From the NCBI GenBank assembly GCA_017945845.1, contig CP072828.1, forward strand, positions 620,001 to 684,000: a DNA stretch of 64,000 nt, read 5' to 3'. Origin of the DNA: Carnobacteriaceae bacterium zg-C25 (GTDB lineage Bacteria > Bacillota > Bacilli > Lactobacillales > Aerococcaceae). Under the pieces are notes generated by a model. That model was not told where the DNA came from and did no database searches. It saw nothing but the letters and a program-made list of their open reading frames with translations. Made by a program: the position numbers and the translations under genes. Of this stretch, positions 7,795 through 30,864 are shown piece after piece (within the stretch, counting starts at the first letter, position 1; each line of letters opens with the position of its first letter).

Positions 7795-7882
7795 AAATTA
7801 TCGCCATCACTTCTATACAAAAAAGAGTAGGTAGTGTGTATCTATTGTTTTTTGTTTAGAAGATGGCAAAAAGGAGAAAAAA

Positions 7883-10006
7883 ATGTCAAAACAAGTTTTT
7901 GAAACAATGTGGGCGGGTCGTCCATTAAAAGTAGAAGTTGGCCAATTAGCCAAACAAGCCAATGGAGCCGTATTGGTTCGCTATGGTGATACGGTTGTAT
8001 TAACAGCAGTTGTCTGTTCAAAAAAACCAATCGATGGTGATTTTTTCCCATTGACCGTAAACTACAATGAAAAAATGTATGCAGTGGGTAAAATTCCAGG
8101 TGGTTTTATTAAACGTGAAGGCCGTCCAAGTGAAGCGGCAACTTTAACAGCGCGTTTAATTGACCGTCCAATTCGTCCCATGTTTGCGGAAGGTTTCCGT
8201 AACGAAGTGCAAATTACTAATACGGTAATGTCAGTGGATCAAGATTGCACACCAGAAATGGCAGCGATGTTTGGTTCCTCTCTAGCATTAGCCATTTCAG
8301 ATATTCCATTTGACGGACCAATTGCTGGTGTGGATGTTGGTCGTGTGAATGGCGAATATGTCATCAATCCAACAGTTGAACAAAAAGAATTAAGCGATAT
8401 TGAGTTATCTGTTGCTGGTACAAAAACAGCGATTAACATGGTAGAAAGTTCAGCTAAAGAAGTTTCTGAAGACGATATGTTAGGTGCTTTATTATTTGGT
8501 CATAACAACATTAAAGAATTGATTGCTTTCCAAGAAACCGTTGTGGCTGCTGTTGGTAAGCCTAAAATGGAAATTCAATTAATGGAATTAGATCCTGCTT
8601 TAGTAGAGGAAGCGAACCAATTATTTAAAGCGAAAATGTTAACGGCTATTCAAACAGAAGAAAAATTAGCACGTGAAGAAAATATTGAATTAGTTAAAGA
8701 AGAAGCAATTGCCTATTTTGAAGAAAAATATGCAGAACACGAAGAATTTGCACGCATTGCAAAAGAAATTCGTCAAATTGCTTATGACTTAGAAAAAGAC
8801 GAAGTGCGTCGTTTAATTACGGAAGATAAAGTGCGTCCTGACGGTCGTAAAATTGATGAAATTCGTCCATTATCTTCTGAAGTGGCGTTATTACCACGCG
8901 TACATGGATCTGGGTTATTCACACGTGGTCAAACACAAGCCTTAACCGCTGCAACATTAGCACCTTTAGGTGAGCATCAAGTGATTGATGGGTTAGGTAT
9001 TGAAGAATCAAAACGATTCATTCACCATTACAACTTCCCACAATTTTCTGTTGGTTCAACAGGTCGTGCTGGAAGTCCGGGACGTCGTGAAATTGGACAT
9101 GGAGCGTTAGGTGAACGTGCGTTAAAACAAATTATTCCATCACCAGAAGATTTCCCATACACCATCCGTTTAGTATCAGAAGTATTGGAATCAAATGGAT
9201 CAAGTTCACAAGCAAGTATTTGTGCTGGAACATTGGCGTTAATGGATGCGGGTGTACCAATTAAAGCACCTGTAGCAGGTATTGCAATGGGTCTTGTGAT
9301 GACAGGTGAAAACTATACTGTTTTAACCGATATTCAAGGATTGGAAGACCATTTAGGCGATATGGACTTTAAAGTGGCGGGGACTGCTGATGGGATTACG
9401 GCGTTACAAATGGACATTAAAATTCAAGGTATTACGGAAGCGATTTTAACAGAAGCTTTAACACAAGCGAAAAAAGCACGTTTAGAAATTTTAGACGAGT
9501 TAACAAGTACGATTGCACAACCACGTCCAGAGTTAAGTCCATACGCACCGAAAATCGAAATGATTCAAATTCATCCGGATCAAATTAAAGTGGTTATTGG
9601 TAAAGGTGGAGAAACCATTAACGCTATCATTGATGAAACGGGCGTTAAAATTGATATTGACCAAGAGGGTAACGTAAGTATTGCTTCGCCAGATGCAGCG
9701 ATGATTCAACGCGCTATTGACATTATTCGTGAATTGACACATGTCGTTGAAGTGGGTAACGTTTATGAAGGTACGGTTCGTCGTATTGAAAAATTTGGTG
9801 CATTCGTTGAAGTGGCAAAAGGTAAAGACGGTTTAGTGCATATTTCTGAAATTGCGCATACACGTACGAAAAATGTTGAAGACGTTTTACAATTAGGTCA
9901 AAAAGTTAACGTTAAAGTTACTGAAATCGATGATAAAGGACGTATCAATTTATCAATGAAAGTGTTGTTACCAAAAGTAGAAAAAACAGAAAATACAGGT
10001 GAATAA
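7883..10006 (+). CDS. pnp: Polyribonucleotide nucleotidyltransferase (PNPase)
   Basis: The 707-residue protein has two RNase PH-like domains (about residues 1-215 and 300-540), with [20 protein letters not shown] in the second. A KH domain ([20 protein letters not shown]) and a C-terminal S1 domain ([15 protein letters not shown]) follow. It degrades RNA 3' to 5' using phosphate and is part of the RNA degradation machinery. AAAAAGGAG precedes the ATG at 7883. The position after rpsO is conserved, and a RidA-family gene starts directly at the stop codon. Confidence 0.98.
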
Positions 10007-20363: not shown

Positions 20364-23300
20364 ATGAAGAAAATACAGAAATTTGTATCGCTTTTGATGA
20401 CAGTGGCACTTGTAATCGGTCTTTGGCCAGCGCAAGTGGTTCGTGCTGCTGATGAAGGGATTACGTTGACGCAAACGCAAGTACCGTCAACAAGGACAGA
20501 CACAAGAGAATTTTTAACGGGAGAATTGATGCAATCGGTATTAACGTTTAAAGCGAATTTACCAGAAGCAGAGTATACGGGTGCGTATATTGAATTATCC
20601 GTTCCATCAAATGTGGCATCATTTGTTGAAAGTATTGAGCCAAATATTTCGCTAGATTCAGAAGTATTTGGAAGAGCGACAAATGTGAACGCAACGACAT
20701 GGCGTATTCCTTTAAAAGCATCAAACGATGCAAGGGAAGCGGAAATTCCGATTTTCACTAAATTTAAAACATATGTCACGCCAGATAAAACAGCATTGCC
20801 AATTACGACAACGTTGAAAAAAGCTGATGGAACAGTTGTGAAAACGGCTGAACCCGTTTTATTTTTAGCTAAAGCAGGTGGTGCTTCGTATCAAATGGAA
20901 ATTCGTGGCGGACAAGATCAAATTGGTGGTGTGGTGACGAATCAACAAACTTTAGCTACCAATGGACTTGTTGATGTTGTATTTGATTATATTCAGATTC
21001 CAGCTCCAGGAGCAAAATTATCTACTAGAAATTCTAAAGATGAGAACGGCCCTTTTAAAAACGTCACTGGACAACGTTTGTATGATACGATTACGTTAAC
21101 GCAACCGTTGCCACCATTTGCAAAATTCGATGCGTCTAAAAACCCAAACTGGACATATGATGTTGGAACAAATACGGCAACTTATACATTAAATCGAAAA
21201 GATTATAATGATGATGGTTATAATGATGTCTCACTTGTCTTAACGTTTCCGGGAGCGAATGTCGATACAACGTATATGGCAGAATCAACAATGGTATTCC
21301 ACCCAAGAAATAAAGGGGCGAATGAATCGGATGTGACACAAAGTAATTCGGTGCGTTATCGTTTTAGACCGAATAGTACAAAAGGTATGCCGTTTGAAAA
21401 AGTTTTTGCAAATGAGCCAGAAGATCGCTTGGATAATCAAACAAGTCTTTATAATGTGACGAACGTGGCTTCACGTACATCAAAAGGTGTCAACTGGCGC
21501 TTGACAGTAGCCAATACGGCATCAGAAAAAATAACGTTCACAGAGTTTAAAGATTATGGTTTAGATTCACGTTTATACTACACTGGTGTGAGTTTACCGA
21601 GAACAGATGATATTGTTTTAGATCACTACAACGGTGAAACGTATGCCAACGTGTCGAACGTCACTGTTCGTGGTGTGCTAAATGATGGCAGTCAACGTGT
21701 TTTAGGTACGGTATCAAGCGGACGGACATTGAATTTTGACCGTACAATTGCTAGAGAAATTAAAGAGTTGTATTTTGATTTTCCAAGTGGGTACACATTG
21801 AATCATAAACAAATTGTTAGTTTTACGGTTAAATCAGCGTTTAGACAAACACCAACGGTTAGCCCAACAGAATCAGAAAATGAGTATGTGAATAGTGGTA
21901 GTTACAACGCCGTTTATACACGTACAAATGGTAGTTCTTACCCGTTTTCTGCAAATGATACGGCTAAATTTAAATTAGTTGGTCAAAAGGTAGATATCGG
22001 TATTGAAAAACATTTATCTGAAAAATTAGATACGGGTTTTTTGCCACCACGTCGAGATGAAGCACTTCGTTCAGATGATGAGTATGCGATTTGGACTTTA
22101 CAAGGTACTTGGGATAATACGGTAAAAGGTGTGGACGATAGAACAACATTAACGAATGTTGAATTCATTGATTTATTACCAGAAGGTGTTACTTATGAGA
22201 GAACTGTTTTAAACGGTGGTTGGGGAGCGCCTAGACCAACAGTCACTTATGTACCAAATTATAACGATACTGGATTAAATGCCGTTATTATCAAATGGAA
22301 CAGCATTACTGTAGGTCAATTGAATCGTTACATGAAGAATTCAGACGCCATTCAAATTTTAACAAAAGTAACATCTAATTCTGTACCAGGACATAACACA
22401 AACTACGTTTTAGTGAGCGTAGACGGTACGCTTGTAACGAGTCAAGATACGCATCATATGGGTGCTGTGTATGGTTTTTTTGGTGGTTCGTATAAAGATG
22501 AGCGAGATGTCGATCAAGATGGAGATGTGAATGAATCGTTTGCAGCAGCGTCTGCTTATTATGAATATACGGGTCGATACGAAGTGTTAGCACGTAAATA
22601 TATTGCTCGTGAAACGGTAAATAACTGGAATAAAGATGGATTAAAAACAGGAGCAGGTGCACCATTCCGTTATAAATTGTGGAATTACAATAATTTATTA
22701 ACCAATGTAACCTCTTATGAATTGTTAGATGTTTTACCACATCCTAATGACTTTTCTACGGCTGCTTCCGCTACATCTGGTACACTAGAAGCGCGCCAAT
22801 CTAAATTTAGCAATACTTTAACAGGACCTGTACGCATTACAACACCAAACGCACGTAAATTTACGGTAGAGTATTCTACAGATGTTATAACAGGTGAGGT
22901 GGATCAATCATCTCATCAATTAACGTTTAGTGATACTGTAGCAGATTATACGAAAGTAACCGCAATTAGAGTACGCTTGAATAATGGAGAAACATTCAAT
23001 AAAGGCGAATTATTAGAAGCAGAATTACCAATGAAAGCGCCAGAAATAGCAACCTTAGGTGATCGTGCTTGGAATAACTTCTCAATTGCGACAAATACAA
23101 AACAACCAACACCAACCAATTTAGTGTGGAACGAAATGTATATTCCATCATCACCATTAAAAATTGTAAAAAAATCAGCGGACGGTGTGACGCTTCTTGC
23201 AGATGCCGTGTTCACTGTGACACGCGTAGATAATCCAGCAATGACGTATGAATTAACAACGAATCGAAATGGTGAAGTGGAGCAAGTTTTACCTTTAGGT

Positions 23301-25052
23301 ACGTATACGGTTGTAGAAAAAACAGCACCAAGAGGGTATTTATTAGATGCGACTGTACGTACGGTTGAGATTGTCGAAGACGAAACGACAACAGTAGAAG
23401 CTGTAAACGTACCACTTATTTCAGTAACAACGCATAAAATTTGGAACGACGATGACAACCGAGATGGTAAACGTCCAGAAAACATTCAAGTTCGCTTATT
23501 GGCAAACGGCGTAGAAAAACAAACGGTTTCACTTTCTCAAACAGAGAATTGGACACATACATTTGTTGATTTACCAGCATACGAAAACGGTCAAAAAATT
23601 GTGTATTCTGTAACAGAAGATGCGGTTGCAGATTATGAAACAACTATTGATGGTTTTACCATTACGAATCGACATGTACCAGAAGTCAAAAACATTACGG
23701 TAAATAAAGTGTGGCAAGATAATGACAATCAAGATGGTAAACGTCCAGAAACGATTAATATTCGCTTATTTGCGAACGGTGAAGAAAGAGAACTTGCTAC
23801 GTTGACGAGTGAAGATAACTGGACACATACATTTGAATATTTACCAGTTTATGACGAAGGTCAAGAAATTACGTATACGATAACGGAAGAAGAAGTTGAC
23901 GGTTACGAAACAACAATTGATGGGTATACTGTTACAAATACTCATACACCAGAAGTAAAATCTGTTACGGTGAATAAAGTATGGCAAGATAACGATAATC
24001 AAGATGGTAAACGCCCAGAAAGTATTCACGTTCGCTTATTGGCAAACGGCGTAGAAAAACAAACGGCTTTACTTTCTCAAGCAGAAAATTGGGCACATAC
24101 ATTTGCTAATTTACCAGTGTATGAAAACGGTGAAGCAATTGTATACACTGTAACAGAAGATGCTGTTTCAGAATATGAAACAACAATTGATGGTTATACG
24201 ATTACAAACCGCCATACACCAGAAGTGAAATCTGTTACGGTGAATAAAGTATGGCAAGATAACGATAATCAAGATGGTAAACGCCCAGAAACGATTCACG
24301 TTCGCTTATTGGCAAATGGTGTAGAAAAACAAACGGTTTCAATTTCTCAAACAGAGAATTGGGCACATACATTTGCTAATTTACCAGTGTATGAAAACGG
24401 TGAAGCAATTGTATATACTGTAACAGAAGATGCTGTTGCAAATTATGAAACAACAATTGATGGTTACACGATTACAAACAGCTATACTCCAGAAGCAAAA
24501 TCCGTTACGGTGAATAAAGTATGGCAAGATAATGATGATAAAGACGGCAAACGTCCTGAAAAAATTACCGTACATTTATTGGCGAACGGTCAAATTGTCC
24601 GTACGCAAGACATGACAAAAGAGATGGATTGGACACATACATTTACTAATTTACCAGTGTATGCAAACGGAAAAGCGATTGAATATAGCATTAAAGAAGA
24701 TGCGGTTGCATCTTATTCGTCAGTAGTTGATGGATTTAATGTGACAAACACATTGATTGAAACTCCGGATATGCCAGCACCAACTCCGGACGAAGAAACA
24801 CCGGAAAAACCGACTCCACCGAGTCCGAATGAAACACCGGAAAAACCGACTCCACCAAGTCCAAATGAAACACCAGATGTACCGACGACTCCGGACGAGC
24901 CAACTAAAATGCCTAACGAGCCGACGGTTCCATCAAAACCAAAAGCATTACCAAATACAGGAAGTCAACACGATATGACAGTGATTGGGTTAAGTATTTT
25001 ATTAATCGGTTTAGCTGGTTTAATCTATGACAAAAAAAGACTGCATAAATAA
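20364..25052 (+). CDS. LPXTG-anchored surface protein with Cna_B repeats
   Basis: This 1562-residue protein begins with a signal peptide (KKIQKF, hydrophobic core, then VVRA/ADEG near residue 28). A large beta-rich region without a recognised name fills residues about 30-925. It contains EFIDLLPEGVTYE-type segments like those in isopeptide-bonded adhesin domains, and a DxDxDG acidic loop (715-724). A SpaA/prealbumin-like domain follows at about 930-1018 (VEKTAPRGYLLD). Five Cna_B repeats of 90 residues run from about 1020 to 1465, each keeping the Lys (NKVW), Glu (TEDA, TEEE or KEDA) and Asn (TN) positions of the isopeptide triad. A Pro/Thr/Glu-rich stalk leads to the sortase signal LPNTG (1529-1533), a hydrophobic helix and a basic tail. 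A cell-wall adhesin is the likely role; the ligand is unknown. GGGAGG precedes the ATG. Confidence 0.93.
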   Translation: MKKIQKFVSLLMTVALVIGLWPAQVVRAADEGITLTQTQVPSTRTDTREFLTGELMQSVLTFKANLPEAEYTGAYIELSVPSNVASFVESIEPNISLDSEVFGRATNVNATTWRIPLKASNDAREAEIPIFTKFKTYVTPDKTALPITTTLKKADGTVVKTAEPVLFLAKAGGASYQMEIRGGQDQIGGVVTNQQTLATNGLVDVVFDYIQIPAPGAKLSTRNSKDENGPFKNVTGQRLYDTITLTQPLPPFAKFDASKNPNWTYDVGTNTATYTLNRKDYNDDGYNDVSLVLTFPGANVDTTYMAESTMVFHPRNKGANESDVTQSNSVRYRFRPNSTKGMPFEKVFANEPEDRLDNQTSLYNVTNVASRTSKGVNWRLTVANTASEKITFTEFKDYGLDSRLYYTGVSLPRTDDIVLDHYNGETYANVSNVTVRGVLNDGSQRVLGTVSSGRTLNFDRTIAREIKELYFDFPSGYTLNHKQIVSFTVKSAFRQTPTVSPTESENEYVNSGSYNAVYTRTNGSSYPFSANDTAKFKLVGQKVDIGIEKHLSEKLDTGFLPPRRDEALRSDDEYAIWTLQGTWDNTVKGVDDRTTLTNVEFIDLLPEGVTYERTVLNGGWGAPRPTVTYVPNYNDTGLNAVIIKWNSITVGQLNRYMKNSDAIQILTKVTSNSVPGHNTNYVLVSVDGTLVTSQDTHHMGAVYGFFGGSYKDERDVDQDGDVNESFAAASAYYEYTGRYEVLARKYIARETVNNWNKDGLKTGAGAPFRYKLWNYNNLLTNVTSYELLDVLPHPNDFSTAASATSGTLEARQSKFSNTLTGPVRITTPNARKFTVEYSTDVITGEVDQSSHQLTFSDTVADYTKVTAIRVRLNNGETFNKGELLEAELPMKAPEIATLGDRAWNNFSIATNTKQPTPTNLVWNEMYIPSSPLKIVKKSADGVTLLADAVFTVTRVDNPAMTYELTTNRNGEVEQVLPLGTYTVVEKTAPRGYLLDATVRTVEIVEDETTTVEAVNVPLISVTTHKIWNDDDNRDGKRPENIQVRLLANGVEKQTVSLSQTENWTHTFVDLPAYENGQKIVYSVTEDAVADYETTIDGFTITNRHVPEVKNITVNKVWQDNDNQDGKRPETINIRLFANGEERELATLTSEDNWTHTFEYLPVYDEGQEITYTITEEEVDGYETTIDGYTVTNTHTPEVKSVTVNKVWQDNDNQDGKRPESIHVRLLANGVEKQTALLSQAENWAHTFANLPVYENGEAIVYTVTEDAVSEYETTIDGYTITNRHTPEVKSVTVNKVWQDNDNQDGKRPETIHVRLLANGVEKQTVSISQTENWAHTFANLPVYENGEAIVYTVTEDAVANYETTIDGYTITNSYTPEAKSVTVNKVWQDNDDKDGKRPEKITVHLLANGQIVRTQDMTKEMDWTHTFTNLPVYANGKAIEYSIKEDAVASYSSVVDGFNVTNTLIETPDMPAPTPDEETPEKPTPPSPNETPEKPTPPSPNETPDVPTTPDEPTKMPNEPTVPSKPKALPNTGSQHDMTVIGLSILLIGLAGLIYDKKRLHK
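23430..24759 (+). repeat. Five tandem 270-bp repeats encoding Cna_B domains
   Basis: Equivalent bases recur at about 23430, 23700, 23970, 24240 and 24510, an exact 270-base period. Copies 3 and 4 (from 23970 and 24240) are the most alike, with long identical stretches; copies 1 and 5 are the most diverged. This points to duplication by recombination inside the gene. Confidence 0.93.
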
Positions 25053-25296: not shown

Positions 25297-25302
25297 AAAC
25301 AC

Positions 25303-25541
25303 ATATAACGATGATTAGGAATAGTAGAATGTCGTCTTTTTTAGAGAGTGATTGGTTGGTGTAAAATCACAAAGAAACGGTTTGAACTCGCCTATAAGTT
25401 AGTAACTTGAATGCAGTAGGGTTACTCGGGTCGCGTCCGTTATCCGTATGATAAGGCTCAAAGAGCATTTATAGGTGGTACCGTAAATTTTAATCAATTT
25501 ACCCTATAACTGTATGATGATATACAGTTATAGGGTTTTTA
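25303..25541 (+). promoter_or_regulatory. T-box riboswitch, leucine specific (specifier CTC)
   Basis: An AGTA motif at 25323-25326 and GAA-CTC at 25384-25389 frame stem I, making CTC (Leu) the specifier. An upper stem pairs GTGATT with AATCAC (25348-25369). The T-box core AGGTGGTACCG is at 25473-25483 and deviates from the usual AGGGTGGTACCGCG. The terminator pairs 25501-25515 with 25522-25536 (15 pairs) and ends in T. The lower closing helix (TAGG/CCTA) is short. Confidence 0.87.
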
Positions 25542-25559: not shown

Positions 25560-27971
25560 ATGAATTTCAAACATCAAGAAATCGAACAAAAATGGCAAAC
25601 GTATTGGGATAAACACGAAACGTTTAAAACAACAGAAGATGATACAAAACCTTATTACTATGTATTGGATATGTTCCCTTACCCATCTGGACAAGGGTTA
25701 CACGTAGGGCATCCTGAAGGGTATACGGCGACAGATATTTTAGCACGTATGAAACGCGCACAAGGGTATAACGTACTGCATCCAATCGGATGGGATGCCT
25801 TTGGTTTACCAGCTGAACAGTATGCATTAGATACGGGGAATGATCCAGCAACATTTACCTATCAAAATATTCAAACGTTTAAACGTCAATTAAAATCATT
25901 AGGTTTTTCATACGATTGGGATCGTGAAATCGATACGACAGATCCAAATTACTACAAATGGACGCAATTCATTTTTGAAAAATTAATTGAAAAAGATTTA
26001 GCGTATGTGGATGAAGTTGCGGTAAACTGGTGTCCGGCTTTAGGAACAGTTTTATCCAATGAAGAAGTAATTGATGGTAAATCAGAACGTGGCGGTCATC
26101 CGGTCTATCGTAAACCAATGCGTCAATGGGTATTGCGTATTACGGCTTACGCGGATCGTTTGTTAGACGACTTGGAAACAATTGACTGGCCAGAAAGCTT
26201 AAAAGATATGCAACGTAATTGGATTGGTCGTTCACATGGCGCGCACGTTCATTTTAAAGTTGCCGACAGTAATGAGCAATTTACCGTATTTACAACACGA
26301 CCAGATACGTTATTTGGTGCAACTTACTGTGTATTGTCTCCAGAACATCAATTGGTTAGTGCCATTACAACACCACAACAAAAAGAAGCGGTGGAAGCGT
26401 ACATTCAAGAGGTGTCAACAAAATCGGACTTGGAACGTACGGACTTAGCCAAAACCAAAACGGGCGTATTTACGGGTGCTTACGCAATCAATCCAATTAA
26501 TCAGGAACCAATTCCAATTTGGATTGCTGATTATGTGTTATCCAGTTATGGAACGGGGGCGATTATGGCGGTTCCGGGACATGACGAGCGTGATTTTGAA
26601 TTTGCTACAAAATTTGAATTGCCAATTATTCGTGTAATTGAAGATGAAAACAACTCTCCATTACCATTAACAACTGATGGTGTACATGTGAATTCAGCGT
26701 TTTTAAACGGTCTAAATAAAGAAGACGGTATTCAAAAAGCGATTGAATGGTTGACAGAAAATGGTGTTGGTGAAAAAGTAACGTCATATCGTTTACGTGA
26801 TTGGATTTTCTCTCGTCAACGCTACTGGGGTGAGCCAATTCCTGTTATTCATTGGGAAGACGGTAGCATGAGTGTGGTACCAAGTGAAGAGTTGCCGTTA
26901 CTATTGCCGAAAACAGAAAACATTCGTCCAAGTGGTACGGGAGAATCGCCGTTGGCGAATATTGCGGAATGGGTTAATGTCGTGGACGAAAATGGCCGTA
27001 AAGGACGTCGTGAAACGAATACAATGCCTCAATGGGCGGGGAGTTCGTGGTATTTCTTGCGCTATGTTGATCCAACAAATGACAATGCGGTAGCCGACTT
27101 TGAAAAATTGAAAAAATGGTTCCCAGTTGATATGTATGTGGGTGGTGCAGAGCATGCGGTATTACATTTGCTTTACGCACGATTCTGGCATAAGTTTTTA
27201 TACGACATTGGTGTTGTACCAACTGCAGAACCATTCCAACGTGTCTTTAACCAAGGTATGATTTTGGGCGAAAATAATGAAAAAATGTCTAAATCTCGTG
27301 GCAATGTCATCAATCCTGACGATGTGGTGAACCGTTTAGGTGCAGATACACTACGTTTATATGAAATGTTTATGGGACCTTTAGATGCGTCAAAACCATG
27401 GAGTGAAAAAGGGTTAGAAGGTAGCCGCCGTTTCCTAGATAGAGTATGGCGCTTAATGGTGAATGAAGATGGTACGTTAAAAGATACATTGGTGAAAACC
27501 AATGACGGTGCGTTAAATAAGGTATATCACCAAACTGTTAAAAAAGTGACTGAAGATTTTGAAATCATGCACTTTAATACGGGAATTTCTCAAATGATGG
27601 TCTTTGTCAATGAAGCCATGAAAGCTGAAACATTGCCAATTGATTACGCTAAAGGATTTTTACAATTGTTAGCACCCGTTACACCGCATTTAGCAGAAGA
27701 ATTGTGGGAAAAATTGGGTGAAACACAATCCATTCAACATGAAAAATGGCCAACTTTTGATGAAAGCTATTTAGTGGAAAATACGATTGAAGTCATTTTA
27801 CAAGTTAATGGTAAAATTAAAGCGCGTGTCGATGTTCCAGTAAACTTAGATAAAGCAGCGTTTGAAGCGTTGGCGTTGGAAAATGCTGATGTGAAAGCAG
27901 CGCTTGATGGTAAAACAATCGTTAAAATGATTACTGTACCAAATAAATTAGTAAACATTGTGGTGAAATAA
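25560..27971 (+). CDS. leuS: Leucyl-tRNA synthetase
   Basis: The 803-residue class I enzyme has the HIGH site in [20 protein letters not shown] (near residue 40) and the CP1 editing domain with [12 protein letters not shown] near residue 247. [12 protein letters not shown] and the KMSKS loop [10 protein letters not shown] (near residue 577) follow. It charges tRNA-Leu and edits mischarged products in the cytoplasm. AAGGAGG precedes the ATG. Expression should respond to uncharged tRNA-Leu through the T-box. A DUF1294 gene overlaps its stop codon by one base. Confidence 0.98.
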
Positions 27972-30399: not shown

Positions 30400-30480
30400 G
30401 CAACCATGGTGGAATGGCAGACACGCTGTCTTGAGGGGGCAGTGGGGAGACCCGTGCGAGTTCGAGTCTCGCTGGTTGCA
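30400..30480 (+). tRNA. tRNA-Leu (anticodon GAG)
   Basis: The acceptor arm GCAACCA (30400-30406) pairs with TGGTTGC (30473-30479), with discriminator A at 30480. The anticodon stem is CTGTC/GGCAG with loop TTGAGGG, and the anticodon GAG is at 30433-30435. A long class II variable arm precedes the T arm (GCGAG, TTCGAGT, CTCGC, 30456-30472). CCA is not encoded, so the cca product must add it. No promoter is evident between this gene and the glycosyltransferase gene. The anticodon matches the CTC specifier of the leuS T-box. Confidence 0.97.
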
Positions 30481-30488
30481 TTATTGCA

Positions 30489-30775
30489 GCCGTTCGAACG
30501 AAGTGAGTTACGGATGTAATATGGGACGGAGAATCACGGAGTGATTTGAGTACCAATCCTTGCATCTCGAAGAGATGAAGCCGTTCGAACGAAGTGAGTT
30601 ACGGATGCAGTATGGGACGGAGAAGTACGCAGTACTTCGAGTACCAGTCCTTACATCTTCAAAGAAGATGAAGCCGAACGAATACAGTGAGTTACGGATG
30701 CAAAGGGATAGAAAATCCCATAGTGATTTGAGTACCAGTCCTTACATCTTCAAAGAAGATGAAGCTGAACGAACG
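30489..30775 (+). repeat. Three tandem ~92-nt structured repeats downstream of tRNA-Leu
   Basis: Units run 30489-30579 (91), 30580-30672 (93) and 30673-30763 (91), with the first bases of a fourth to 30775. Each has a CCG...ACGGATG segment, a GGGA(C/T) segment, a small hairpin, GAGTACCA and TCC, then a CATC...GATG hairpin. The first hairpin is AATCAC/GTGATT in unit 1 but GAAGTAC/GTACTTC in unit 2; the last is CATCTC/GAGATG in unit 1 and CATCTTC/GAAGATG in units 2 and 3. Both arms changed together, which suggests selection for RNA structure. An 85-codon open frame across it from TTG 30560 looks like a by-product. Confidence 0.8.
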
Positions 30776-30801
30776 TATTTTACAAATTTAAAAATCAATC
30801 C

Positions 30802-30829
30802 AAAAAACCGTCTGTAAGGATGGTTTTTT
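30802..30829 (+). terminator. Terminator after tRNA-Leu and the tandem repeats
   Basis: AAAAAACCGTC (30802-30812) pairs with GATGGTTTTTT (30819-30829) with one G-T pair. It suggests that the tRNA and the repeats lie on the same transcript. Confidence 0.85.
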
Positions 30830-30864
30830 CTGTTGCAAATCATTTTTATTTTTCAACACTTTTA

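Follow-up and report, generated by a model that had tools for sequence, protein, structure and literature searches.

The array behind tRNA-Leu(GAG)

The window, i.e., the whole stretch of 64,000 nucleotides analyzed from the genome of Carnobacteriaceae bacterium zg-C25 (G000), contained three imperfect units on the strand of a tRNA-Leu gene (Table 1). This arrangement, put forward in the original prediction, was confirmed: the units started at 30482, 30573, and 30666 (spacing 91 and 93 nt; a 37-nt repeat family in the window), and units 1 and 2 were 87% identical across 83 nt. The motif GAGTTACGGATG occurred exactly three times in the window, at 30505, 30596, and 30689; with at most one mismatch it had four matches, against 0.15 expected in 64 kb. 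The compensating arms named in the prediction were present, both within the units (AATCAC/GTGATT in unit 1, GAAGTAC/GTACTTC in unit 2) and between them (CATCTC/GAGATG, CATCTTC/GAAGATG). The CATCTC/GAGATG inter-unit hairpin was seen in the window array only.

Table 1. Features of the tRNA-Leu locus and its repeat array (positions in the window).
Feature	Position	Strand	Evidence and remarks
tRNA-Leu, anticodon GAG	30400..30480	+	ARAGORN; Rfam tRNA; array adjoins its 3′ end
Unit 1, hairpin P1 with lower stem P1a	30482..30521	+	Fold; R1 match 30486-30563, 68.9 bits; P1a covariation in homologues
Unit 1, hairpin P2, UGGGAC-G-GA-GAAUCAC..GUGAUUU-GA-GUACCA	30522..30555	+	Fold; covariation
Inter-unit hairpin 1/2, CATCTC/GAGATG	30563..30577	+	Sequence; fold
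Unit 2, P1 hairpin core	30580..30604	+	R1 match 30577-30654, 73.4 bits
Unit 2, hairpin P2, variable stem GAAGUAC/GUACUUC	30613..30646	+	R1; sequence
Inter-unit hairpin 2/3, CATCTTC/GAAGATG	30654..30670	+	Sequence
Unit 3, P1 hairpin region, pairing weaker	30673..30697	+	R1 match 30670-30745, 49.3 bits
Unit 3, decayed P2: altered 5′ arm, GAGTACCA retained	30704..30737	+	Sequence; row of alignment A3
Hairpin past unit 3, CATCTTC/GAAGATG	30745..30761	+	Sequence
Truncated fourth unit, its start (GAAGATGAAGCTGAACGAACG)	30755..30775	+	Sequence, by reading
A/T-flanked terminator-like hairpin after array	30802..30829	+	Predicted in fold

The array together with the hairpin behind it (30481-30835) had a better fold than every one of 100 dinucleotide-shuffled sequences (z -4.2). 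Single units folded only modestly (z -0.8, -1.35, and -2.45), so folding energy alone was no proof of the units. A terminator-like hairpin was present in the fold after the array, and the consensus terminator scan called none at that position. Unit 3, in which P2 had decayed, scored below units 1 and 2 with covariance model R1 (Table 1). Its damaged P2 5′ arm fits a copy on which constraint is weak or absent. Given the modest single-unit folds and the broken unit 3, functionality of the window array itself had no support.

The two genes downstream of the array encoded an HTH-PfkB protein and an Indigoidine_A protein (Pfam). Type III toxin-antitoxin RNAs are tandem RNA repeats ahead of a toxin gene; this identity was rejected, as neither downstream gene is a toxin. 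Elsewhere in the window, a T-box leader (25302-25509) lay directly upstream of the leucyl-tRNA synthetase gene (25560-27971), approximately 2.4 kb before tRNA-Leu. A match to the Listeria sRNA rliD lay on the minus strand at 7849-8033, antisense to the beginning of a gene (7883-10006) for a polynucleotide phosphorylase-like protein (named by protein reading). Positions 20364-25052 encoded a surface protein of 1562 aa that has repeated domains and ends in an LPNTG-type sorting signal (by reading).

Structure and covariation of the P1-P2 element

The P1-P2 element is approximately 80-90 nt long and consists of hairpin P1, closed by lower stem P1a, followed without a gap by hairpin P2. In the form found at rpsI, the P1 part reads UGCUG-GA-GCCGU-U-GCGAA..UUCGC-UU-ACGG-AUA-CAGUA and the P2 part reads UGGGAC-G-GA-GAUUU..AAAUC-GA-GUACCA. 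Alignment A3 comprised 92 matches (E ≤ 1e-6) from 70 chosen sources, forming 85 distinct rows; weaker matches (E > 1e-6; e.g., L005, L006, L008-L011, and L049-L055) were left out. In A3, which was fitted to the structure of the model and favors that structure, 94.1% of cells were paired and 15 of 20 pairs changed on both sides, bearing out the structured element of the original prediction. The covariation score was 0.277; the 500 shuffles gave 0.138 (sd 0.006), and slid controls did not exceed 0.077. Covariation counts are of sequences and cells, not of independent events. Double changes recurred across different families. Pair 56-64 was mostly UA, with GC in G000 and G109, CG in several Aerococcaceae, and AU in G000.

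Unconstrained RNAalifold predicted the P2 pairs on both alignments A2 and A3, and P1 on neither. The predicted P1 hairpin draws its support from pair counts on the named structure and from single-sequence folds. Helices 1 and 2 of the named structure were 92.6% and 87.1% paired in A3, where the window's own P1 rows were shifted by one and counted as partly unpaired. P1a, which lies outside the model, was 88.2% paired against 83.3% when shuffled, with 24 double changes against 5.5 in the shuffles. The three positions between P1a and P1 paired in just 35.7% of cells. A longer stem closed by GGAC and TCC, as originally suggested, was rejected: this GGAC/GTCC pairing held in 58.8% of cells in the homologues, compared with 97.2% for UGG..CCA plus AC..GU. 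Group II intron domain V was likewise rejected as an identity; P1 was alike on reading, but its stems vary freely, and Rfam gave no intron family at E ≤ 10.

P2 has a nearly invariant asymmetric core beneath a freely varying stem. The 5′ side of the core, TGGGACGGA(G/A), was found in 73 of 92 rows and the 3′ side, (C/T)GAGTACCA, in 75 of 92. The bulged G was kept in 90 of 92 rows, a GA/GA opposition (columns 49-50/72-73) in 78 of 92, and a G/A opposition (columns 45/76) in 81 of 92. Four G109 copies (L164, L166, L168, and L169) had a shrunken variable stem and still contained the core. The asymmetry was read as selection because palindrome correction by template switching would be expected to erase it. 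G·U cells outnumbered A·C cells 65 to 23 across A3; the strand signal comes from P2 (43 to 6), as P1 showed no clear bias (22 to 17). Judged from these sequences, the P2 excess points to a putative transcript on the strand of the upstream gene.

Homologues of the element

BLAST matches were found in 19 of 76 family genomes, the window genome included. They revealed a second array in G000 (845990-846277, minus strand), preceded by a ribonucleotide-reductase-like gene and followed by an mnmE-like one (names by protein reading). Model R1, built from 21 sequences, had matches in 26 of the 76 family genomes (E ≤ 0.01) and in 30 of 198 order genomes, representing 18 of 54 genera (E ≤ 0.001); in four of these 30 genomes (G009, G010, G216, and G222) the best match was below 40 bits. 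Because 168 of the 198 order genomes had no R1 match, the element is not generally required.

Six R1 matches at two loci were found in G000, namely the three window units and three in the second array. In congener G002, a separate array with a period of approximately 170 nt came immediately after a T-box terminator; a dnaK-like and a dnaJ-like gene flanked a further, partial copy. Congener G001 had no R1 match. The 30 R1-positive order genomes fell in families f1, f2, f3, f6, f7, and f8; none fell in f4, which we take to be Streptococcaceae. Family f1 was read as Aerococcaceae in the broad sense because the flanks in G005 were those of 'Aerococcaceae bacterium NML190073' (L040, L081). Carriers found by a pattern scan were Enterococcus, Trichococcus, Fundicoccus, Facklamia, Ignavigranum, Alkalibacterium, and 'Aerococcaceae bacterium NML190073'.

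The original prediction had not recognized the element, and a covariance-model comparison with Rfam 15 also matched no family. At gathering score, no Rfam 15 family lay over the window array or over homologues in six loci, and at E ≤ 10 nothing credible lay over the units or over homologues in six loci. A plasmid search with the tRNA and array as query returned 17 records, all matching the tRNA part alone. The plasmid search with an rpsI copy returned no match, phages gave none, and viral contigs gave none for the pattern. No description of the P1-P2 element was found in the literature searched. P1-P2 is a dispersed two-hairpin RNA element, previously unnamed, that is found behind genes in many lactic-acid-bacterium relatives, often immediately past rpsI, which encodes ribosomal protein S9.

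Related P1-type hairpins with weak R1 matches only were seen in L050, L051, and L054 (G010, G009, and G017); in L050 and L051 they sat inside a repeat of approximately 300 bp with long inverted ends, TGAGCA..TGCTCA (by reading). A large tRNA cluster (L009) had P1-like hairpins and a different second hairpin between its tRNAs.

Copies behind rpsI

The pattern scan gave 39 genome-contig matches, of which 27 were inspected: 25 Lactobacillales loci, Rossellomorea, and S. hyointestinalis. With S. hyointestinalis left aside, the element lay behind the rpsI stop codon or behind a displaced rpsI 3′ fragment at every one of the 25 named Lactobacillales loci inspected. By reading, 13 of the 25 were behind at least 50 C-terminal rpsI codons in frame and 12 were behind a shorter displaced 3′ fragment, which is the putative mark of a segment integrated there. 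A terminator-like hairpin stood behind the element at rpsI loci (by reading). No rpsI end was seen at the Rossellomorea and S. hyointestinalis matches, which appear to be chance hits. The remaining 12 of the 39 matches, from unrelated taxa, were judged to be chance; a hand estimate gave approximately 23 expected.

The rpsI gene is already known as an integration site, that of IMESag-rpsI (PMC5090054). In G056 and G035, a 130-codon rpsI ORF with the element was followed by cargo and then by a displaced fragment with the element. The order in G054 was the same, but the far copy had a short fragment only. Seven R1 matches lay within approximately 35 kb in G199; six were viewed with their upstream sequence, and one was behind rpsI itself. 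In some genomes R1 matched only at a distance downstream of rpsI: approximately 12 kb (G085), 17 kb (G141), and 18 kb (G127). Among 20 rpsI 3′ UTRs, obtained from 30 loci, one (L104) had the whole element and another (L130) had a form lacking P2. In all three genomes of the window's genus, rpsI was without the element.

In the L130 rpsI 3′ UTR (G195), the stretch from P1 to the GTACCA end was missing, as if deleted between short direct repeats (by reading). The rpsI-linked islands L172-L174 (G199) and L300 (G054) carried restriction-modification genes (PADLOC), with P1-P2 copies marking the junctions. These islands also encoded a 1213-aa protein with no PADLOC match, and a 1215-aa look-alike was found in L297.

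Dispersal in a single genome

Genome G109 (family f7), which we suspect to belong to Listeriaceae, contained 69 R1 matches that formed 50 clusters by our own grouping. The only other genome of its genus (85% complete) had no R1 match. Arrays in G109 contained not only whole units but also repeated half-units, left (P1-GTATGGG) and right (GAGTACCAATCC). Among 17 loci read, several had the array immediately after a terminator T-run or a stop codon, and one had it after a tRNA-Lys. Of 48 stretches fetched around copies, 38 were scanned with ARAGORN, which called tRNAs in 2.

Of the 49 clusters for which a simple ORF caller gave a 5′ neighbor, 41 had this neighbor on their own strand and 8 had it on the opposite strand; the 50th cluster had no ORF called 5′ and followed a same-strand tRNA cluster. 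Between co-directional genes, 23 ran along and 6 ran against the gene direction (p = 0.0023). Eighteen lay between convergent genes, compared with two between divergent genes. The copy nearest to rpsI was approximately 9 kb away, and the rpsI UTR of this genome (L103) was without the element.

Probable origin of the array and putative mobility

Both congeners, G001 and G002, had tRNA-Leu(GAG) with no unit behind it, and part of the upstream glycosyltransferase gene matched within approximately 1 kb of tRNA-Leu in each. In G001, a terminator-like hairpin lay at most approximately 10 nt past the tRNA (by reading). Because both congeners were without units, either the G000 lineage gained the array or there was more than one loss, and a gain is the simpler account; the element probably entered the window tRNA locus recently. 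The original view of a tRNA-linked RNA kept in tandem found no support in these comparisons: the orthologous tRNA-Leu(GAG) had no units in two of two congeners, and the homologues were dispersed, often as single copies after rpsI, with arrays also at other loci.

No terminal inverted repeats were apparent in units of the window and G109 read by eye. Filled and empty rpsI and tRNA-Leu sites were likewise read by eye; neither terminal inverted repeats nor a target duplication nor a transposase was linked to the element. Its distribution and the filled and empty loci in congeners suggest that it is mobile. The tandem arrays look like local duplications.

Interpretation

We consider it likely that the window array arose when a dispersed structured repeat with a 3′-end preference, acting as a 3′-end RNA module, was inserted in the G000 lineage and duplicated there in tandem. 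The element would be transcribed within the 3′ trailer of the upstream gene, here the tRNA-Leu precursor, and would then fold into two hairpins and act in cis. The P2 core would probably be the binding site of a host protein or of an enzyme of RNA processing or decay. Spread would be non-autonomous, with the element tolerating or targeting terminators, stop-codon neighborhoods, and tRNA ends. Replication slippage or unequal crossing-over may then create the tandem arrays, and weak selection would let some copies decay, window unit 3 being an example.

It is possible, though on balance not likely, that the primary form is instead a cis-regulatory RNA of the rplM-rpsI operon, a 3′-UTR element similar to the L17 downstream element and possibly bound by S9 or another ribosomal protein, from which the dispersed copies and the window array are escapes. 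The 25 of 25 inspected named loci at rpsI with their terminator-like hairpins fit this account, as do the integrated segments that bring their own copy, so that rpsI keeps the module (G056, G035, and G199), and the L17 downstream element offers a precedent (PMC2864571). Weighing against it are the 168 order genomes with no match, the rpsI genes of the window's genus (three of three without the element), the single whole element and single P2-less form among 20 rpsI 3′ UTRs, and the 69 copies of G109, all away from an rpsI UTR that has none. We are rather doubtful of a selfish DNA palindrome, whose hairpins would serve as single-stranded DNA in transposition and whose compensatory changes would reflect template-switch correction, not selection on RNA. 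The element is dispersed, imperfectly palindromic, rare between divergent genes and frequent between convergent genes, as are pneumococcal repeats (PMC3049150), and P1 has no clear excess of G·U over A·C; however, the asymmetry of the P2 core would be expected to be erased by such correction, and the G·U bias of P2 favors RNA of one strand.

A small RNA processed from the tRNA-Leu precursor and specific to the window locus is very improbable. The array does begin a few nucleotides past the tRNA 3′ end on the same strand, and a G109 array likewise follows tRNA-Lys, but the empty orthologous sites in G001 and G002 largely refute the idea for this tRNA, and tRNAs were rare in the stretches scanned around G109 copies. 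For a tandem protein-coding repeat we see practically no chance. An ORF of 85 aa that begins with TTG overlaps the array; against coding, and in agreement with the original prediction, the 91/93-nt spacing breaks the reading frame (91 is not a multiple of three), the ORF matched no Pfam family, and the changes follow base pairing.

The dispersed repeat with a 3′-end preference that we favor can be extended to a bolder proposal, which we regard as unlikely. P1-P2 would then be a portable 3′-end RNA domain, its P2 core a specific docking site for a protein or RNase that sets the 3′ end or the stability of the upstream transcript. Elements integrating at rpsI would carry the domain to spare S9 expression, and it would have been copied repeatedly behind other genes, tRNAs included, giving genome-wide transcripts with one 3′ module (approximately 50 loci in G109).

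Small repeats with a conserved fold are commonly regarded as parasites limited to a species, and structured RNAs in the 3′ UTRs of ribosomal genes as vertical regulators. P1-P2 looks like both kinds: its core is conserved over several Lactobacillales families, it is often found behind rpsI, it is carried by rpsI-integrating segments, and it reaches 69 copies in G109. If the P2 core binds a defined protein, the element would give a direct handle on the control of transcript 3′ ends in these bacteria, and also on what makes rpsI a good integration site.

Comparison with known systems

The L17 downstream element (L17DE, RF01708), which lies behind rplQ, is described as a structured 3′-UTR RNA that accompanies a ribosomal-protein gene and occurs in Lactobacillales and in Listeria (PMC2864571). 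Like P1-P2, it has a conserved core under a variable hairpin and a second strong hairpin behind (13 of 20 fetched L17DE loci folded). In contrast, its core sequence is another one, it had a single match per genome in 53 of 60 genomes, and it was neither dispersed nor tandem. Identity with L17DE was rejected: R1 had no match in 20 L17DE loci, RF01708 was absent among the Rfam matches to P1-P2, and the only RF01708 match of the window genome lay elsewhere (G000:50483-50553).

EFAR is listed as a MITE (PMC3733652), and Efa-1 is described as a 163-bp double hairpin with 65 copies (PMC2267715); we infer that both names denote the same repeat. By description, P1-P2 resembles EFAR/Efa-1 as a small dispersed intergenic repeat of paired adjacent stem-loops, with its 69 copies in G109 found in an unrelated genus. 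EFAR has an L-shaped fold and targets stem-loops. None of 22 genomes searched had an exact match to an E. faecalis primer. The best of the 22 (G254, one mismatch) had no R1 match and the next best (G264, two mismatches) had one. In the 400 kb viewed of G254, an Enterococcus-like genome, a multi-copy repeat of approximately 171 bp (L206 11155-11325), unlike P1-P2 in sequence by reading, is a candidate EFAR-like element.

BOX elements of S. pneumoniae are described as modular (boxA-boxB(n)-boxC); their folding is RNA-like, they are enriched between convergent genes, and some have been shown to be expressed (PMC3049150). The repeated left and right half-units of G109 resemble BOX solely in this modularity. 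BOX is described in the pneumococcus and close relatives, whereas no R1-positive genome fell in family f4; the two were set side by side by description. Overall, P1-P2 is filed beside BOX, EFAR/Efa-1 and, for its rpsI seat, L17DE, as a dispersed structured repeat with a 3′-end preference.
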